A stretch of DNA of 64,000 nt from Pochonia chlamydosporia 170. Taxonomy: Eukaryota; Ascomycota; Sordariomycetes; Hypocreales; Clavicipitaceae. The notes beneath the pieces were generated by a model, which was given only the letters and a program-made list of their open reading frames with translations, had not been told where the DNA came from and did not search any database. The stretch covers positions 2,976,001 to 3,040,000 of the forward strand of contig NC_035790.1 in NCBI RefSeq assembly GCF_001653235.2. Direction: 5' to 3'. Shown in pieces: positions 38,995 to 48,501 of the stretch; the first letter of the stretch is position 1, and every line of letters begins with the position of its first letter. A program made the translations under genes and the position numbers.

Positions 38995-40706
38995 CGTGTT
39001 GTTGTGGTTATTGGCCACGCGAGGACGGGGGAGGATCAAAGTTGAGGGAGTGGTGGATGGGTTGCGATGGGGTGACGTTGAAATTGTTAGTGATATCTTG
39101 AAGCACCTCCGGAGCACAGGCTGTGTTGGGAAGTATTTGCGAAGGTGCAAGTATACTCTAACGAATTCCGGTTGATCTTAGCACCCCGGGCGATATGCGA
39201 CACCTGGCACTGGGTACATGTTTGGAAACTTTGACCCTAACCCGCTGTAGCTCTGAACTAGAGGTCGATGTGGGGACGATGTACTAGTGCACCTCGATTT
39301 CAACTTCAGACATCCCTACTTAAGCACTCAGACCAACCTTCGGAGAACCATCAACTAAAGCACTATCAAGCCTCGTCTGTGATACAAATACTACACATAT
39401 TGACTCTCTTTGTATTAGTCATCAACTAAAAGATAGGGCTGCGTTTGCGTAGGCAACAATCACTCCTCAGAGCACTCCCGGATCACTTTCGATACAAAAT
39501 GCAACAGGGTCACGTAAGCCCAAAGAAGATGCTCCACGCAGAGGGCAAAGCGGCAGTGGCCGTATCGTGAGACGAGCACAAACGACACAGGGCATGTTTT
39601 TTATTGCCTGCAGAGAAGCATGTCAATTTGTTTTCGGAAAGTGTCAGCATTACCCTCGGAGACATCCTGGGCCAACCACCGCCATGCTGAGCATGTGCAA
39701 CTCTCTGCAGGGGGCGTACAAGGCTGCACGGAGTACTCGGCAGCATGTTGAAAAATATCCGTCGTTCTCGCAATTTCAACAATTTGGAGTAAAAAAAGTC
39801 TCGTCTGTGGCGTACGAATGCCCCGGACCGCAAAGGCGTCTTCCCCTCGTCCGACGGCATAGGACAGCTTTGAGTTGGACAGACCCAGGGGAGAACTACC
39901 GCTTCACGCTGGTGATACCCCGTGTATGGCGGCGTAATCGTCGGCTAATGCACAGTAAGAGCAGCCTTACTTTAGGAAAATTTGGGGCGGCTCGTGCGGG
40001 ACGACTCCGAAGCGGTGGCACCCCAGACAAATTTCTTGTTGCACAATATCCTCTGCATCAGCACAAGGGTGGTCACCGAACGCAAAGTCCAACTTCATCT
40101 CAGTGTACTCCGTGTCCATTAACAACGAAAGCTAGATACACTTAGCATACAACATGGCACGGCATTATCCTATACGGATTCAGTCCTCTTTTCTTCCTTG
40201 GTCAATTATGATAGTATATAAATCAACAGGGATACCTTGATGTTGGTTTGTCTATTGATACCGACGCTCGTCCATCACAACGCTGAGGCCAATGCAGGTG
40301 GAACTGGGCTGGGATACTCCCTTGGGCAGCAAGGGTTATGTGCTACCACACCAGCGGCTACTCCCAGGATACTATTGGCACCTCAGCCAAGGATACGTCC
40401 AACGGTTTTCAGCTTTCTCGTACAGTGGGAGTCGAAATGGCTTTGGCAAACAAAAGGTATCGCATACCGTCCAGTTCAAAGCCTTGCAACTACAGTGTGT
40501 TAACGAATACTTGGCAATATGTAGGTTTGTCCCCGCTGCAGAACTGTGGTTGCCCTGGCTCCCCGTTCGTGGCCTGCAGACTGTTGAGACGTTGACACAT
40601 CTTGTACGCTGTGTTGGCTTGTATGGAGTGAATGAGTATTCTTTCCTTTCTTGTAAAAATGAGGGAATCATCAAGCCTGTGACTGTGTTCTCTTTTTCAT
40701 TTCAGA
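38995..40706. other. Intergenic region: GET2 promoter and NLR leader
   Basis: No supported gene. It includes a CGGAGTACTCGG palindrome variant at 39729-39740, a TATATAAAT box at 40215-40223, and a textbook 3' splice site (ttctctttttcatttcag) ending at 40705, one base before the NLR ATG. All three forward frames between 40240 and 40680 are partly open, so an upstream NLR exon cannot be excluded. Confidence 0.5.
40215..40223 (+). promoter_or_regulatory. TATA box, candidate NLR promoter
   Basis: TATATAAAT stands about 490 bp before the NLR start codon. With the strong acceptor at 40705 it suggests that transcription begins near 40245-40255 and that a leader intron is removed before the start codon. 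Confidence 0.4.
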
Positions 40707-43700
40707 ATGGCGCCTCCATTTCCAAAATCGGTGGACGAGCTTGTTCAGCGCTTGAAAGACCTAGGAATCAATGCATATAACTCAGACCCCGACTCCATCC
40801 TCGATTCAGAACCGACCCCTGAGTCGGGCCCGAGTCCGAAATCGAAAAATTGTGTCGATACGAAATCGACCGTTGCTCATGAGAAGAAGATGCCTAATTC
40901 GTGGAAGGATCGCGAGGTCCGCACTCTCATAGACCTATGTAACTCTTTGATCAAGGTATATGTCTATGAAAGCGTTGGGGCTGTCCGTGACATCCTCCCC
41001 TTGATTCCATTCGCCACATTCACGGTGTGTCCAGGTCTGCTTAAAAAATTACAGGATGGCTCACAACTCCTTGATGACGGCGTCTTGGATACGTTCCATG
41101 CCCTCCTACTGTGTCCCCGGGTTCGGGAGGAACTCAAGCATGCCCTTGGCAGCACATTGCTCTGCTTCGCGGAGCGGCTCGGCGATGCGGTAAGCACTGT
41201 CAACGACCCAGAAATTTACCGTTTGATATGCAGTCTAGCCACAGTATTGGATACACTGAACGACGTCAAGCGCAGCGGAATCAGCGACGAGAGAGTGGTC
41301 CAACCCTTGCTTCAATCACTGGACCGAATTCGCCGCCATAACGACTTGCATCTCTCTCAAGTCGCCCGATATGCATACCAATCGCTGATTGGTATTCCCA
41401 GCGATGTGAGTCCGTGGGAAAAACTAGGGAAGAATTTTTTCAACGTTACCCTCAGTGCTGCCAAGGTAGCTAGCGCTATGCCGAATCCCGTCGCAGGTCT
41501 TAGGGTGTTGAAAAACGTAACTGACCTAGTCGATTCAATAACTGATCTCGTTAAAACGCTGGGAAGTGCGAGCCAGGATGGTGTGCGGCGAAGGAAACCG
41601 GCCATGTGGTATATCGCTCTCCGCTACACAAATATGCTGATCAGAAGCAACGCTCCCAAACACCTTGAGTTACTGTTACAAAGTTCTGGCCTCCCTTGCC
41701 GGAACGACAAAGAGTTCCTGTGTGGTGTCTGCGCACAACTGGAGCAGGTCAGACATGACCAGTCTCCAAATGATGCAATTATCCAGGCTTTGAGCCGCTT
41801 TTTGGTCCAACAAGCCAACACAACAAAGCACCGTCGGGTCCAAAAATGGGTGCAGTCAGTCGTTGATTCGACTAGATTTCCATGTTCGCAAAGAAGGAAC
41901 CGGTCAGGTTGGTTTCAATTGCTTGGTAGGCGAGAATCCCGCAAGTACGGCACTGAGATAAAATATTCCAAATTGTCTCAGTTCGAATCATATAACCGCG
42001 AGCTCTTTGAAAGAGGGCTGGAAAATTGTACTGAGGCGAAGTTGTTTTGCATCGACCAAGAGATTCGAAACAAATACTCTGAACCGGTCACTGGTTGCCT
42101 CACCATCGAACGCCTCGACGGTGGTATCCTGCCTATGGACCAGTGCTATATTAATCTAGCTGTCCTGCCAGATTTTGATATGAAGGTGAAACCCGACGGT
42201 AAGAGCAGTACCGACACGACATCTTCATTTACTCTTTTGAGCCATTTAAAGGTCCAAGAAACCGCAACAACAACTCTCCACTTGTCGGATCTTTTTGAAC
42301 ATTGCCGTCCCAACAGAGGCGATGTCTTGAGTGAAAATGCTTCTCCAGATAGAGGTATGTGCCACACATGCACTGTTCTCAATTAATCTCATTCATAAGT
42401 CATTCTGGTTCCATGATAAGTCGCCTCCAAACTCGAGGAATTGTCCGCCATATTTTCTAGCACAATGTTTTAGATCTAGCCTCGCCCTTTACTGACTTGA
42501 AATATAGCGAAAGACCAGCCAGATATTATGCGGGTGCTGATTCGAGGTCAGGCCGGCATGGGTAAAAGTACTCTCTGCAAGAAAATGATTTATGAGTTCA
42601 TTCACAACAATATGTGGACGGAGAAAATCGACCGCGTTATTTGGTTCCCATTGCGTGAGCTCCAGGAAGAAAAAGATACCTCTATCGGGAGTCTCATCAT
42701 TCGCAGACATTTTGTCGAAGACAACGAGGCTGATCTGCGCTCCGAAACGTTGGGCAGAGAGATCGAAAAGAAAAGCACTAGGACGCTCTTTATCCTCGAT
42801 GGTCTCGATGAGGTGCCTACAGGCGCAACTTCGCCGTTGATCACGAAATTACTGAATCAGCCTCGGGTCATCATCACAAGTCGTCCTTATGCCATCAGCC
42901 AGGCGAGACTTTATAATCTTCATCGAGAGGTCGAAACCGTGGGGTTCTATGCCGACCAAGTGAAAGAATACATCAAAGTTATTGGGAAAGACATGGCCGA
43001 GGAAATTCAGCAATTTACCGATAGCCATCCGATAATACAAGGACTGGCTCGCATCCCTATTAAACTTGATGCTATTTGCTTCAGCTTTACAGAAAAGAGC
43101 GCGGCTAGCAAAGAGATGAACGACATCTCTACAGGAGTAACAACAATGACTGAGCTCTACAAAGGTGTAGAATGGGCACTGTGGTGCAAAGACATTCCAA
43201 AGCTAGGGATTCGGGGCTGGGATGACAAGGAATCGGAGCCAGAGCTGATTACGAAGGAAATTGCGCAACGCGAAGGTCCCAAAGTTGGCAAAATCTGGTT
43301 AAATCGGCCTCTCAGAGCCCTGCAACACCTTGCCTTCAAAGGACTTTGCGACAACATTTATGAGTTTGGCCGAGATTACTGGCAACCCATCTTCACGCCT
43401 GCCGGCCAGTCTCCGCTCAACGCAGCTAGTCTTTCTTTTCTGCGATCCTCCAGCGCATACACACGCCATGGCCAGACTTACCATTTCTTGCATCCAACCT
43501 TCCAGGAGTTCTTCGCGGCGCAATACTTTGTGGAGCATTGGAAGTCAAATACAGAGTTAGACCACCCAACACTAGAAAATATCACAGCCGCCCACTTTCT
43601 GCGCAAAGAAAAATATAACGCCCGATACGATATCATGTGGCGCTTTGTCGCGGGATTGCTTCAAGACGGTCCCGGCAAAGAGCAGCTCTGCCTCTTTTTC

Positions 43701-46445
43701 AAGCTGGTTGAGAAAGAGCCGCGTGACCTTTTTGGTCCTGGTCATCAGCGTCTAGTTATGCATTGCCTCAATGAGGTCCATCCCTCACAGACGAACCACG
43801 AGTCGTTCCATAAGATGCGAATGGCACTAGAAAACCATTTGAAAGAGTGGCTTTTGTACGAATGTAGGGTCCTGGGAAAGTCCTGGTTGGCTGCCGAATC
43901 AGAGTTCCCCTGCTCTGTTGTATTGTCTGCATTTCGGGAAGCCCCGCCAGAAAGCAAGGCCATAATTGTCAAGACGATGGGGCAAAGACGAAGTATCCCG
44001 TTGGAGGTCGTTAGCCTACTAATGGCACTGGCCAAGGATAACACGGACAGACAATTGTGCCGGTCTGCTTGCGATGCAATCTACTCTTCCCGGGTCCAGC
44101 CGACTTATGAGCTCCTGAGACTCACAGTCGACCGACTGGGGACCGACTCTATATCGACTACGATACTAGACAGACAAGTATCACTCCCCAAAGAAATCAC
44201 CGATGCTGTGTCAAAAAGCCTAGTGAACCCGGATCTGAAGATGAGGAACTCGGCCGCCAATGCCCTTCGTGGTTTGGAATCGGATGCCATCATTGAAGCT
44301 ATCGCAAGGCAACTACATAACCCAGACAGTAGCATCAGGTCATTAGCTATCGAAACGCTGGAAAGAGAATACTCCCTACCACCTTTTGTTCTTAACGAGT
44401 TCTACACCAAGTTAAAAGACACGAACGAAGAGGTTAGGACTGCAGCGTCAAAAGCTCTAAAACGGTACAGAGGAGTATTGCCAGATAACGTCGCCCAAGC
44501 CGTAGCTGAACACTCAAAAGACCCAAATGACAATGCCACACCACCAGCTGCTGAAACGCCACGGAAGTCGCCGAGACTACTCGAATATCTTATTCAAATT
44601 TTTACAAAGAAAGATGAACACGCAGGTAAAGAAGGTGGGAGTGTGACCTTCAAATCTCAAAAGTCTGGGCAAGAATGGACGATGGGTGCCCTCCAAATCA
44701 TTGCTAAAGAGTTGGAAGATTCAAACCCCAAGATCAGAATATCCGCTACCAAGAAACTGAAATTAAAGACGAATTTGCCAGAGGATATTGTTCAAATTCT
44801 GGCAAAACAGTTGGAAGATTCAAGTGCAACGGCTAGAGACGAAGCAGCTGAGATTTTGTCCGAGCAGACAGCGCTACCGCTGCCTCTAATCCAAGATCTG
44901 TCACAGAAACTCGAGGGTCCGAATTCGAGGGCTTGGATTCCTTCTCTGAGTGCACTACGCAAGTTCGTGGATATTCCGGACGCGATTGTTGGCGTGGCCG
45001 CGGAAGCCATAACGGTTCATGCTGACCGACGTGACAAGAAGGCAAAAGTGAGGCTATCGGCTGCTATAAAACGAAATTCATGTTTGGGATTTCCAAAGGC
45101 TATGCTCAAACAAGTTGCAAAGTCTAGAGATGGGCCAAAACGGATTGCTTGGTGGACGCTCGTCACCCGTAGAGCCAATGTCAAATTACCAGAACCCGTC
45201 AGCCGGGCCGTCATCAAGCTGCTGGAGAATTCAGACGGCAAAACCAGATTGGCTGTGCTCCGAAGTTTGCTTGGATTTGACAATTTCTCAGTAGATCTCT
45301 TGGCAGCGCTGACAAGAATTGTAGAAGGCGACAACGTCAAAGAAAGAGCAAGGGCGTTGCTGGTGTTATCCGAACCCACGACGGGTCCGGTGGTTTATAC
45401 CGAGGGGCTTCTTATTGCATTACTTAAGCATTTCAACTCATCAGACACAAATATCTGGCAGAAGGCTATGGATGCGGTGCTGCATCAGGCTACTTTGCCG
45501 ACATCGGTTGCCGATGCAGTTGCCAAATTCTGCGAGGAATCTGCTACAACTGACAAGTTAAAGCATCTAGTCAATGCTGCTGGATACCGAAATGATAGAC
45601 GTTGTCCAGAATTCTTGCAACATACTCTAGTGAAATTACTGGATAGCCCAGACAGAGAAATCAGGGCTGTGGCGGCAGAATCGTTCCTCGATCGGCCACC
45701 ACTAGTTCAGTCCGTCATTTCAACATTATTTCAGAAGCTCCTGGATACCGCAGATGCAACGATTCGGAGCAACATTGGGCGTGCAATAGAGGGAAACTGG
45801 ATCTCTAACGAAAACATGGAGACTATGATAAGGGTGCTACAGGGATCAAAGTCGGGAGAAGATGTGAAGGGGTCGGCTCGAAGTTTGCTGTTGCATGGGC
45901 CGCTCTGTCGCCGTGAGCTACCAGAAACCATTCTTCAATTTCTCGGAAAACAACTGCGCGACCCAGACACCACAATTCGCCGTGGCGCCGCCTTGCTATT
46001 GTGTGAGCGCCAACATTTGTCGATACCTGTGATCCAAACCGTTGTGGAAAACTTATCTTATCTGTCCGGGATTGGAAGGACTGGCGTGCCAAGGGTACTC
46101 GTTGAGATGCCACTCTTGGATGACAAACTACTCACTTCTACATTTGAAAGTTTACATCAAGGGCCATTCACGAGTCTTTTTGTCCAGCTGCGAAAGTCGA
46201 GCTTCCAATGGCACCTCACTTGGTGCGTTGATGGTGACTCAGTATCCTACCTCAACTCAGCCGCCGGGACCAGAACCCTGGCGTTTGAATCGTTGAAAAC
46301 CAAAGTCGAAGAAGCTCAAAAAAAGAACTCTGTGCCCCCGTCGGTGAACTGGGTTGAGGATGGGACAGAATTGGAAGAATCCGCAAGGACAGAGAGAACG
46401 TCGTTAATATCCTTATCTGGTCTCGCACGATGTGTCGTGCAGTAG
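40707..46445 (+). CDS. NACHT-HEAT NOD-like receptor (STAND NTPase)
   Basis: Exons 40707-42354 and 42508-46445 (GTATGT..ATATAG, phase 1) encode 1,861 residues. Residues 1-480 are mostly helical with no effector family I recognise (HALLLCPRVREELKHALGS; LLCFAERLGDAVSTV). Next comes the pre-NACHT block typical of fungal NLRs, IERLDGGILPMDQCYINLA. The NACHT domain has Walker A GQAGMGKST (563-571), Walker B LFILDGLDE (643-651) and a sensor VIITSRP (670-676). A winged-helix-like part contains the family block FLHPTFQEFFAAQYF. Residues about 1095-1820 are HEAT-type repeats of ~32-45 residues with an LP-x(2)-I..L-x-D-x(4)-R-x-A-x(3)-L rhythm. Fungal NLRs act in heterokaryon incompatibility and non-self recognition. 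Its neighbour is a divergent alpha-SNAP. Confidence 0.9.
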
Positions 46446-47048
46446 TTGGGTCGATTGAGTGATATGACTAGTCACCATTCACATGATTACATCTTAATAG
46501 GCTACTTGAAATGTAAATCTCTGTTAAAAGCCATAACATCCAAACCATCGAGACAATGAGGCATCATTCAATTAGACACTCTGTGCTTCCTTGCGAGAGG
46601 CGGGTTCGTCGTGCTCTATGGTTGGCGCTGGTTGCTATTTAGGGCTGACCCAACATGCTCCATCTCACAGCAGCATCCTGACATCTAGACAATCATCCAT
46701 AGTCCATTACCGCACGCTGTCATTCCGTCTTAGCTGGCATCATCTTCATCACGTGTTGGGCTGCAATTGTACCAGGAGACTTGACGGAGCTAGGTTTGTA
46801 GAATGGCTTGGACAGGTGTCCGTATTCATCTGACACTATACACCCGGATTCAAGGACGGTCTGTAAGTATTGTTTAAGCTGCTGCAGTTCGAGCATGATC
46901 CGCCTCTGTAGCTATAGAGCTGGAGAACACAAAGTCACTTGTTTACCTCAGTCCCTTCTTCCATCACCATGATTCACTCCCCATGTGATGCGTAACGGCT
47001 ATGAGATTCCTCCAATTCCCATTTCCTTGGCCTGATTATTGTGGTTCC
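46446..47048. other. Convergent spacer between NLR and SNAP-like gene
   Basis: A 603-bp spacer holding both 3' ends. No open frame of interest; an 80-codon frame at 46591-46833 has no support. Confidence 0.5.
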
Positions 47049-48501
47049 TTAGACAAACTCATTATCCTCCTCCTGCTCATCCGGTATGTGCCTCTGCTGG
47101 TGATGCTGCGTTTGCTGGTTTCTTTGATCTTGTAGAGACTGGCCATATTGCTGAGGCTGGCCATATTGCTGAGGCTGGCCATGTTGCTGAGGCTGGCCGT
47201 ATTGCTGAGATTGGCCATATTGCTGAGATTGGCCATATTGCTGAGACTGGCCATACTGTTGAGACGAGGACCGCCGCTCTCTTTCCTGTTGTAGCTCAGC
47301 CTCGGTAAGTTGATCGCCCCAGGTCACCCTCCTCGCTGCGGAAAGTATATTTCTTTGCCGATGGTCCAGACTCGTCACTTTCGCAGAAGATTCCACGCAC
47401 GCCGCAAACCGCTCTAAGTCGGGGATGTCCTGCCTAATCGCCGCAGCCAGATCTCTCAGAAGCGTTGCCAGCGGCCCCGTGTTGAAAAGCGTCGTATTGA
47501 ATACTGAAGAAGATAGAAAACGCTCAGGTCCAAGCTCCGCTGCATCTCCAATGGCAAGAGAGCAAAGTCCGGAATTGAACAAACGGGGCTTCGCTATAAC
47601 CAACCCCGCGCGTTCGGGCTCAATAATCGTCGCTGCCATTTGGTAGGCCGAGGCAGCTCGCTTGAAGTAGTTACCTGTTTCCATTTTCCCAACCTGCTTT
47701 GCGGAAAGCTCCACGCCATGATCGACTAACATCTCGGCAATCCGAATAAGGTACCCGCTGGCAATACTGAAAACGCATCATCAGCAAGACAATATTAGTC
47801 AAGAATGGTGAGGGATAATTCGTACCTTCGACTGTCTACAAAAGGCTTCTCAGGTTCCTTATGATTCGGTTTAAAATACACGTTGAAGGCGTTGAGGTAC
47901 CATTTCTCAGCCTCAGTCACGTCGTTCAGTTGTTCACGATACAGATCTCCAAGTGCTGAGTAAGCCTTGGTCAACCTCGAAAAGTCCTTTCTCTCCTTGA
48001 ATACCTCTCCCATGGTCGTTGCGCATTCCTTAGCACGGTCAAGGACGACATTTCCGTTCACTTCGCTGGATTGGCCGCCTTTGTAGGCTTGCATAAAGGC
48101 TTCGTGCGCTCTCTGGTAATTGGGGCCGGTGGAGTGCGAGGAATCTTCCACATGATTCCGAAAGGTATCCGCACCTTTCTTAAACGCATTTCCGGCTTCG
48201 ATGTCTAGACAGCCATTAGCAGTGATGCCGAAAAAGCTGGATCGGCGCATGTGATGGCTGCTCTTGCAAGACGGGGTCCATACATAACCCTTCCTGCAGA
48301 AACCGCTCGGCCGCCTGGATAAAACCTTCAGCCGCGGAGCGGTACGTCTCTTCACTGCCGGTAAGACGGTTCCAGAAACTGCCGGTACTGGACAGTGTGT
48401 TCTCTGCCTATATGATCGGACGGAATGATTAGTTGCGTTTCTCGGCTGCTGGTGGGAGGGAATCGAACCTGCTTCAACAGACCATGACCGCTTGGTCCCA
48501 T
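47049..48501 (-). CDS. Divergent alpha-SNAP (Sec17) paralogue with Q-rich repeat tail
   Basis: Exons 48469-48501, 48284-48407, 47826-48204 and 47049-47766 encode 417 residues. The N-terminus HGLLKQAENTLSSTGSFWN, then YRSAAEGFIQAAERFL, aligns with the Sec17 signature (LL-x-K-A-xx-TLSS...YxxAADLY-x-QAAN-x-F). TPR-like helices follow: AGNAFKKGADTF, FSRLTKAYSALGDLYREQ and AEKWYLNAFNVYF. The fold ends near residue 330 (PDLERFAACV..SLDHRQRNIL). Canonical alpha-SNAPs are about 290 residues and end in an acidic-leucine motif that stimulates NSF. Here the chain continues with a charged helix, seven QQYGQ[SP] units (348-389), and DEQEEDNEFV. Alpha-SNAP couples SNARE complexes to NSF for disassembly; this copy looks specialised. 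It is convergent with the NLR. Confidence 0.85.
47136..47261 (-). repeat. 18-bp minisatellite encoding QQYGQ[S/P] repeats
   Basis: Seven tandem 18-bp units in the coding strand, 126 bases in total, in frame inside the SNAP-like gene. The units differ by few bases (Y to H in unit 5, S or P at the last position), which implies recent amplification. Confidence 0.95.

Follow-up and report, generated by a model that had tools for sequence, protein, structure and literature searches.

Does an NLR gene that converges with a divergent alpha-SNAP gene act together with its neighbour, or do the two genes merely adjoin? The question is raised by positions 40707 to 48501 of a stretch of 64,000 nucleotides, here called the window (C1:2976001-3040000; positions given without a contig are those of the window). 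The genome, 44.2 Mb in 49 contigs, is probably that of a filamentous ascomycete, judging by its gene content and intron style. An initial annotation had proposed that the NOD-like receptor (NLR) and its SNAP/Sec17-family neighbour form an allorecognition pair, on the precedent of the NLR PLP-1 and the SNARE SEC-9. The precedent is documented: in excerpts of PMC12881547, PLP-1/SEC-9 heterokaryon incompatibility is described for Neurospora and also for Podospora, Cryphonectria and Botrytis, and two-gene incompatibility systems more commonly consist of tightly linked genes. Surveillance of SEC-9 by NLRs is believed to have evolved more than once (excerpts of PMC10197012 and PMC12881547). The explanation that we favour, at a probability of roughly 45%, is that the locus holds two intact, probably functional genes that are neighbours by coincidence, and we rate coincidental linkage slightly higher than a guard-guardee pair. 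A functional link between the genes is not required to explain the locus. On its linkage, the pair can reasonably be put forward as a candidate NLR-SNAP guard system; it is not evidence of one.

Both gene models were assembled by hand from the letters, and their splicing is predicted. The NLR gene begins with an ATG at 40707 on the plus strand and the SNAP-like gene with an ATG at 48501 on the minus strand, exactly at the ends of the interval first annotated. The genes converge across a gap of 603 bp with both frames intact, and both are probably functional.

To place this adjacency in context, we examined the neighbours of other NLRs in the genome, in which NACHT is matched 61 times at E<=0.001, 54 of these above the cut-off. 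The comparison set consisted of 20 further loci with NACHT matches, each of 10 kb, with 112 open reading frames (ORFs) of at least 130 aa, of which 30 were scanned; two of these proved to be NLR parts. The remaining 28 came from 18 of these loci and lay outside the frames assigned to NLRs. Pfam matches at E<=0.001 were obtained for 16 of them, two under the curated cut-off, and the families were assorted: amidase, sulfotransferase, RTC, AA9, kinase, Nup84, ribosomal L1, thioesterase, zinc finger, transcription factor, DUFs and hAT. The other 12, some of which may be parts of NLR genes, matched no Pfam family, and a SNAP, SNARE or vesicle-trafficking family was found in none of the 28. Since NLR neighbours are assorted in this genome, a single NLR-SNAP adjacency can be due to chance, and with 61 NACHT matches some NLR is expected to lie beside an unusual gene. 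By itself, adjacency to one of the 61 is weak evidence for pairing. Among the 20 loci, only the NLR at C6:1756963 (locus C6:1752000-1761999) carries the NAIP-like motif that also marks the NLR of the window. It has HEAT repeats, including a 99-bp repeat in 2.1 copies at 86%, and a weak DUF676/esterase match upstream (E 0.028, under the cut-off). No SNAP neighbour was detectable there: two further ORFs of the locus matched no Pfam family, and Pfam SNAP gave no match on the contig. This supports coincidence at the window locus, as does the finding that the HEAT repeats of its NLR are not highly conserved among themselves in the manner of het-d/het-e type sensors.

Several observations weigh against coincidence. 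The chance that one given gene adjoins an NLR is about 1% by a rough estimate (2 x 61 neighbouring positions, with 11,000 genes assumed). The G+C content at third codon positions (GC3) is 0.51-0.57 in both genes of the pair (0.507 in NLR exon 2) against 0.74 in the flanking GET2 and Gta3/GatF genes; such low values are not peculiar to the pair, being equalled by other window genes such as the HECT gene. Finally, by analogy with SEC-9, a divergent SNAP with no detectable close relative is the sort of gene that one would predict next to an NLR.

What kind of receptor does the NLR gene encode? Its features are as follows.

40707..42354, plus strand: NLR exon 1, 549 codons plus 1 nt, from the open frame and splice sites
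41046-41975, plus strand: ARM_5 domain within exon 1 (PF23948, E 2e-66, 225 bits)
42355..42507, plus strand: NLR intron, GTATGT...ATATAG, placed by acceptor trials
42508..46445, plus strand: NLR exon 2 with NACHT and HEAT solenoid, open frame of 1314 aa (NACHT 2.3e-18, HEAT_2 8.8e-19)
42531..42977, plus strand: NACHT domain (Pfam 67 bits, cut-off 26.7), with Walker A at 42546-42569
43485..43520, plus strand: NAIP-like (N-NACHT) helical-third motif FLHPTFQEFFAA, matching FhHxxhQE[YF]hxA (PMC12258605)
44160..46004, plus strand: HEAT repeats, approximate extent (HEAT_2 68 bits, HEAT 50 bits)

The two exons encode a product of 1861 aa with no internal stops. Nine intron acceptors were tried and only two reach the long second frame: 42507, which was chosen and gives 1861 aa, and 42513, which gives 1859 aa. 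The full NACHT-HEAT NLR of the initial annotation is thereby upheld. Its Walker A (GQAGMGKS), Walker B (LFILDGLDE) and helical-third (FLHPTFQEFFA) motifs are intact. The combination of a NACHT domain bearing both Walker motifs with a C-terminal repeat sensor (HEAT) is that of fungal NACHT STAND proteins, and the helical-third motif together with HEAT is that of the N-NACHT/HEAT class. N-NACHT is defined by the NAIP-like motif in the excerpted text of PMC12258605, where a survey of Sordariales counts 70 N-NACHT NLRs in all; the N-NACHT/HEAT NLRs described there share the motif and the HEAT repeats with this protein. Its domains and motifs place the NLR among the STAND receptors, in the rare NAIP-like NACHT/HEAT class, and from them we infer receptor activity. 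A sesB-like N-terminus is usual in the class but not obligatory; here the N-terminal exon has ARM_5 and no esterase-type Pfam family. A Pfam search found no other ARM_5 match in the genome. The closest solved structures to exon 2 in the PDB are those of NLRP3 (E 5e-11), and the ARM_5 region has no PDB relative at E<0.05. In such a receptor the HEAT solenoid would act as the sensor, oligomerisation would be driven by ATP and the N-terminal ARM-like region may provide the output.

Sensors of the het-d/het-e type consist of repeats of high internal conservation that are over 80% similar and recombine (PMC12222747, in excerpt). In contrast, the HEAT repeats of this NLR are mutually degenerate, with 16 of 33 residues identical in the best gapless 33-residue pair, which argues against hypermutability. 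A search of the NLR for tandem arrays found none; one 31-nt repeat pair at 84% was seen. Such mutually diverged sensor repeats make a fast-switching receptor less likely and remain compatible with a PLP-1-like guard.

An acceptor-like TTTCAG stands directly before the NLR ATG (window 40680-40707) and could mark an intron in the 5' untranslated region or an overlooked upstream coding exon. Six ORFs 5' of the NLR were scanned and gave no Pfam match at E<=0.1.

Is the convergent gene an alpha-SNAP? It was modelled with the following features.

48469..48501, minus strand: SNAP-like exon 1 (spliced model), with a branch-like CTAATCA in the next intron
48284..48407, minus strand: SNAP-like exon 2 (spliced model)
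47826..48204, minus strand: SNAP-like exon 3 (spliced model), PF14938 in frame at 21.5 bits
47049..47766, minus strand: SNAP-like exon 4 with the stop (spliced model), PF14938 in frame at 22.8 bits
47052..47291, minus strand: Q-rich C-terminal tail of 80 residues, 31 of them Q (spliced model, composition)
47135..47265, minus strand: 18-bp tandem repeat, 7.3 copies at 91% matches, encoding QQYGQS/P units (repeat search)
47052..47081, minus strand: acidic tip DEQEEDNEFV, aligned by MAFFT with the IEE..EDFS ends of canonical fungal Sec17

The four exons, separated by GT-AG introns of 61, 79 and 59 nt with branch-like sites, encode a product of 417 aa. The single exons fall under the Pfam cut-off of 25 bits, and the spliced protein matches Pfam SNAP over residues 6-324 at 73.7 bits (E 2.2e-20). 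Against a profile built from 120 fungal Sec17s, the core scored 41.0 bits, compared to 257 for yeast Sec17 and 4.6 for the best of 200 shuffles, so that membership of the SNAP family is beyond chance. The relationship proposed initially is therefore confirmed. Likeness to canonical Sec17/alpha-SNAP extends to the Pfam SNAP match over the whole core, the aromatic residues of the N-terminal loop (GSFWN) and, possibly, an acidic tip with a penultimate F. The N-terminal loop of SNAPs touches the membrane. The differences are considerable: MAFFT alignment to 25 natural fungal Sec17s gave identities of only 21-26% in exon 3 and 19-24% in exon 4, the core carries insertions, the last helix reads LDHRQRN instead of the LDKWKT of fungal Sec17, with loss of KWK, and the Q-rich tail is added.

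A PDB search with the SNAP-like protein returned alpha-SNAPs only, and weakly (E 0.004). Gamma-SNAP identity is not favoured on the basis of this search, in which alpha-SNAPs alone appeared at E<=1, rather than of a direct gamma-SNAP comparison. Residues 1-337, searched against a database of 5.8 billion proteins, gave 7234 candidates and none at E<=1; this search requires shared 5-residue words, and distant relatives can escape it. A fungal Sec17 probe gave 1085 hits in the same database, showing that fungal proteins are present. With the full-length query, the Q-rich tail attracted unrelated candidates and one hit was obtained (E 2.3e-4), covering 2% of the query. A comparison with plasmids gave no match. 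Collectively, these results suggest that the gene is probably a fast-diverged SNAP-family adaptor whose core is weakly Sec17-like.

The acidic tip of SNAPs contacts and stimulates NSF. The initial annotation had described the C-terminus as rebuilt: the C-terminal change in the predicted protein is an added Q-rich repeat tail of 80 residues, and the tip itself still resembles the canonical one (EEDNEFV against EDFS). Canonical ends of the form [ED][ED]F[SA] occur in all 120 Sec17s listed, and the SNAP-like protein ends in NEFV. Among 2262 internal 8-mers, 0.09% scored as well as its last 8 residues, and so did 1.9% of the sequences obtained by shuffling its last 20. The likeness was noticed post hoc, and we regard it as suggestive and not as proof. 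The protein may thus keep its NSF-contact tip on a tether of Q-rich repeats. With its tip so tethered, it would bind NSF loosely and might stimulate it poorly or differently.

Does the genome hold a canonical SEC17 besides this gene? A search with Pfam SNAP over the whole genome gave four matches at E<=1, all under the cut-off: two were exons of the window gene, and the others lay at C12:203192 (23.3 bits, the top match) and C2:2578864 (E 0.51). The frame at C12:203192 was rejected as Sec17, since its letters, read by eye, suggest a P-loop protein (GLGGIGKT) whose TPR-like repeats are nearly identical to each other. A further weak place lies at C12:407348 (E 0.55). Yeast Sec17, a natural Sec17 from Saccharata and a fungal consensus (80-91% identity to 120 natural Sec17s, those listed among the 1085 hits) gave no match in the genome. 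The coding patterns KDYFLK and EPDDAAN had no genome match, and LDKWKT had three, in no frame reading as Sec17; such patterns are a weaker test, as the natural Sec17 P0116 departs from KDYFLK and an intron within a motif would hide it. The positive controls were recovered, with epsilon-COP, of similar size, found in three exon pieces (C7:1212034) and NSF at 81% identity to its probe (C1:3909664). The initial annotation had named a canonical SEC17 elsewhere as a point to confirm, and it seems to be missing from the assembled sequence; as an empty search alone proves nothing, this is an anomaly rather than a demonstrated loss. A gap in the sequence searched would account for it, as would a genome in which the SNAP-like gene serves as sole SNAP. 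Its being the only SEC17, together with invariance among strains, had been named beforehand as grounds for giving up the pair, and as far as the assembly shows it is the only one.

These findings bear on what the pair might do if its linkage were more than chance. A guard-guardee or guard-decoy relationship, in which the NLR monitors the SNAP-like protein as a fast-evolving NSF adaptor, is possible, and we hold it only tentatively. A foreign allele encountered once hyphae have fused, or an attack on the proteins of membrane fusion, would alter the shape of the SNAP-like protein or its NSF tether; the HEAT solenoid would bind the altered protein, and the NLR would assemble and kill the cell via its ARM-like N-terminus. 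The two genes are indeed intact convergent neighbours, 603 bp apart, and the SNAP-like protein is strongly diverged, with a repeat tail of a type able to vary in length. The precedent of PLP-1/SEC-9 in several fungi and the prevalence of linked genes among two-gene systems (PMC12881547 and PMC10197012, in excerpt) point the same way. The likeness is that of an NLR acting on a membrane-fusion component, seen here as a linked NLR and fusion-family gene in one genome. However, PLP-1 is a patatin-NB-ARC-TPR protein, whereas this NLR combines ARM_5, a NAIP-like NACHT and HEAT; SEC-9 is a t-SNARE, whereas the neighbour here is of the family of NSF adaptors; and interaction and cell death were shown for PLP-1/SEC-9, whereas the present pair is known from its genes. 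Linkage in a single genome, sensor repeats that are not of the hypermutable type, and an ARM_5 region with no solved relative at E<0.05 also speak against a guard. We know of no killing activity of ARM_5. Moreover, Pfam SNAP found no second SNAP-family gene in the genome, and hence no second pair.

The SNAP-like gene might instead be the sole alpha-SNAP, with the canonical gene lost or replaced and the NLR either guarding it or incidental to its essential role as NSF adaptor. The failure of Pfam SNAP, three Sec17 probes and three coding patterns to find a canonical SEC17, with controls positive, and the seemingly retained acidic tip favour this, but an essential partner at 19-26% identity to Sec17 in its main exons would be implausibly mismatched to an NSF at 81% to its probe. 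KWK of the LDKWKT helix is lost, and an assembly gap is the simpler reason for the absence of SEC17, so that this explanation appears unlikely. Equally unlikely is the boldest form of the guard model, in which the NAIP-like NACHT/HEAT receptor would keep watch over a runaway alpha-SNAP (perhaps the last SNAP of the genome) that carries its NSF-activating tip on a length-mutable Q-rich tether, making the SNARE-recycling step rather than a SNARE the sentinel of allorecognition or immunity. The soybean Rhg1 alpha-SNAP variants offer, as an idea, a SNAP whose contact with NSF is abnormal in the context of resistance. Their C-terminal changes are small, whereas the SNAP-like protein has a repeat tail. 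As thought for Rhg1-b, the protein could be a dominant-negative executioner or poison, a poor NSF binder whose release or level is under NLR control. Rhg1-b alpha-SNAP interacts poorly with NSF and disrupts vesicle trafficking (PMC7986850, in excerpt), and in the window gene the altered C-terminal region adjoins the presumed NSF-contact tip. This tip, however, is apparently kept rather than lost, and an expression link between the NLR and the SNAP-like gene would be speculative; we consider a poison highly improbable. Least credible of all is a decaying SEC17 pseudogene beside an NLR: its very high divergence would fit, but the 417-aa frame is intact over four exons, with GT-AG introns and branch-like sites, and the match to the complete Pfam SNAP domain still reaches 73.7 bits.

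If the two genes did cooperate, NLR surveillance of membrane fusion would extend from the SNARE SEC-9 to an NSF adaptor, the SNAP-like protein would suggest itself as a ligand of a NAIP-like NLR in fungi, and a SNAP whose NSF tip sits on a tether would be known from nature. Apart from any link to the NLR, so diverged a SNAP in a genome in which no canonical SEC17 was found is notable. From the sequence, the most useful new facts are the putative tethered acidic tip, the predicted combination of an ARM_5 N-terminus with a NAIP-like NACHT and HEAT in one receptor, and the failure to find a canonical SEC17. Among the open-licence papers listed by literature searches, none was, judging by title and the start of the abstract, about an NLR paired with Sec17. 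The whole word 'SNAP' is absent from PMC9815663 and PMC12258605, and alpha-SNAP from PMC12881547.

The pair is flanked by GET2 on the minus strand (Pfam GET2 129.8 bits) and a Gta3/GatF gene on the plus strand (87.8 and 47.7 bits). A repeat search for insertion footprints gave only matches of 16-20 nt, besides the tail repeat of the SNAP-like gene and the one 31-nt HEAT pair. The 1.5 kb from GET2 to the NLR (window 39200-40706) contains open frames and has a TpA/ApT ratio of 0.89, compared to 0.57-0.67 elsewhere in the interval. At other NLR loci, hAT-family transposase dimerisation domains were observed near NACHT matches on the small contigs C18 and C13. On both C15 and C16, DUF6601 genes occur in the vicinity of NACHT matches and may be a recurrent NLR neighbour.

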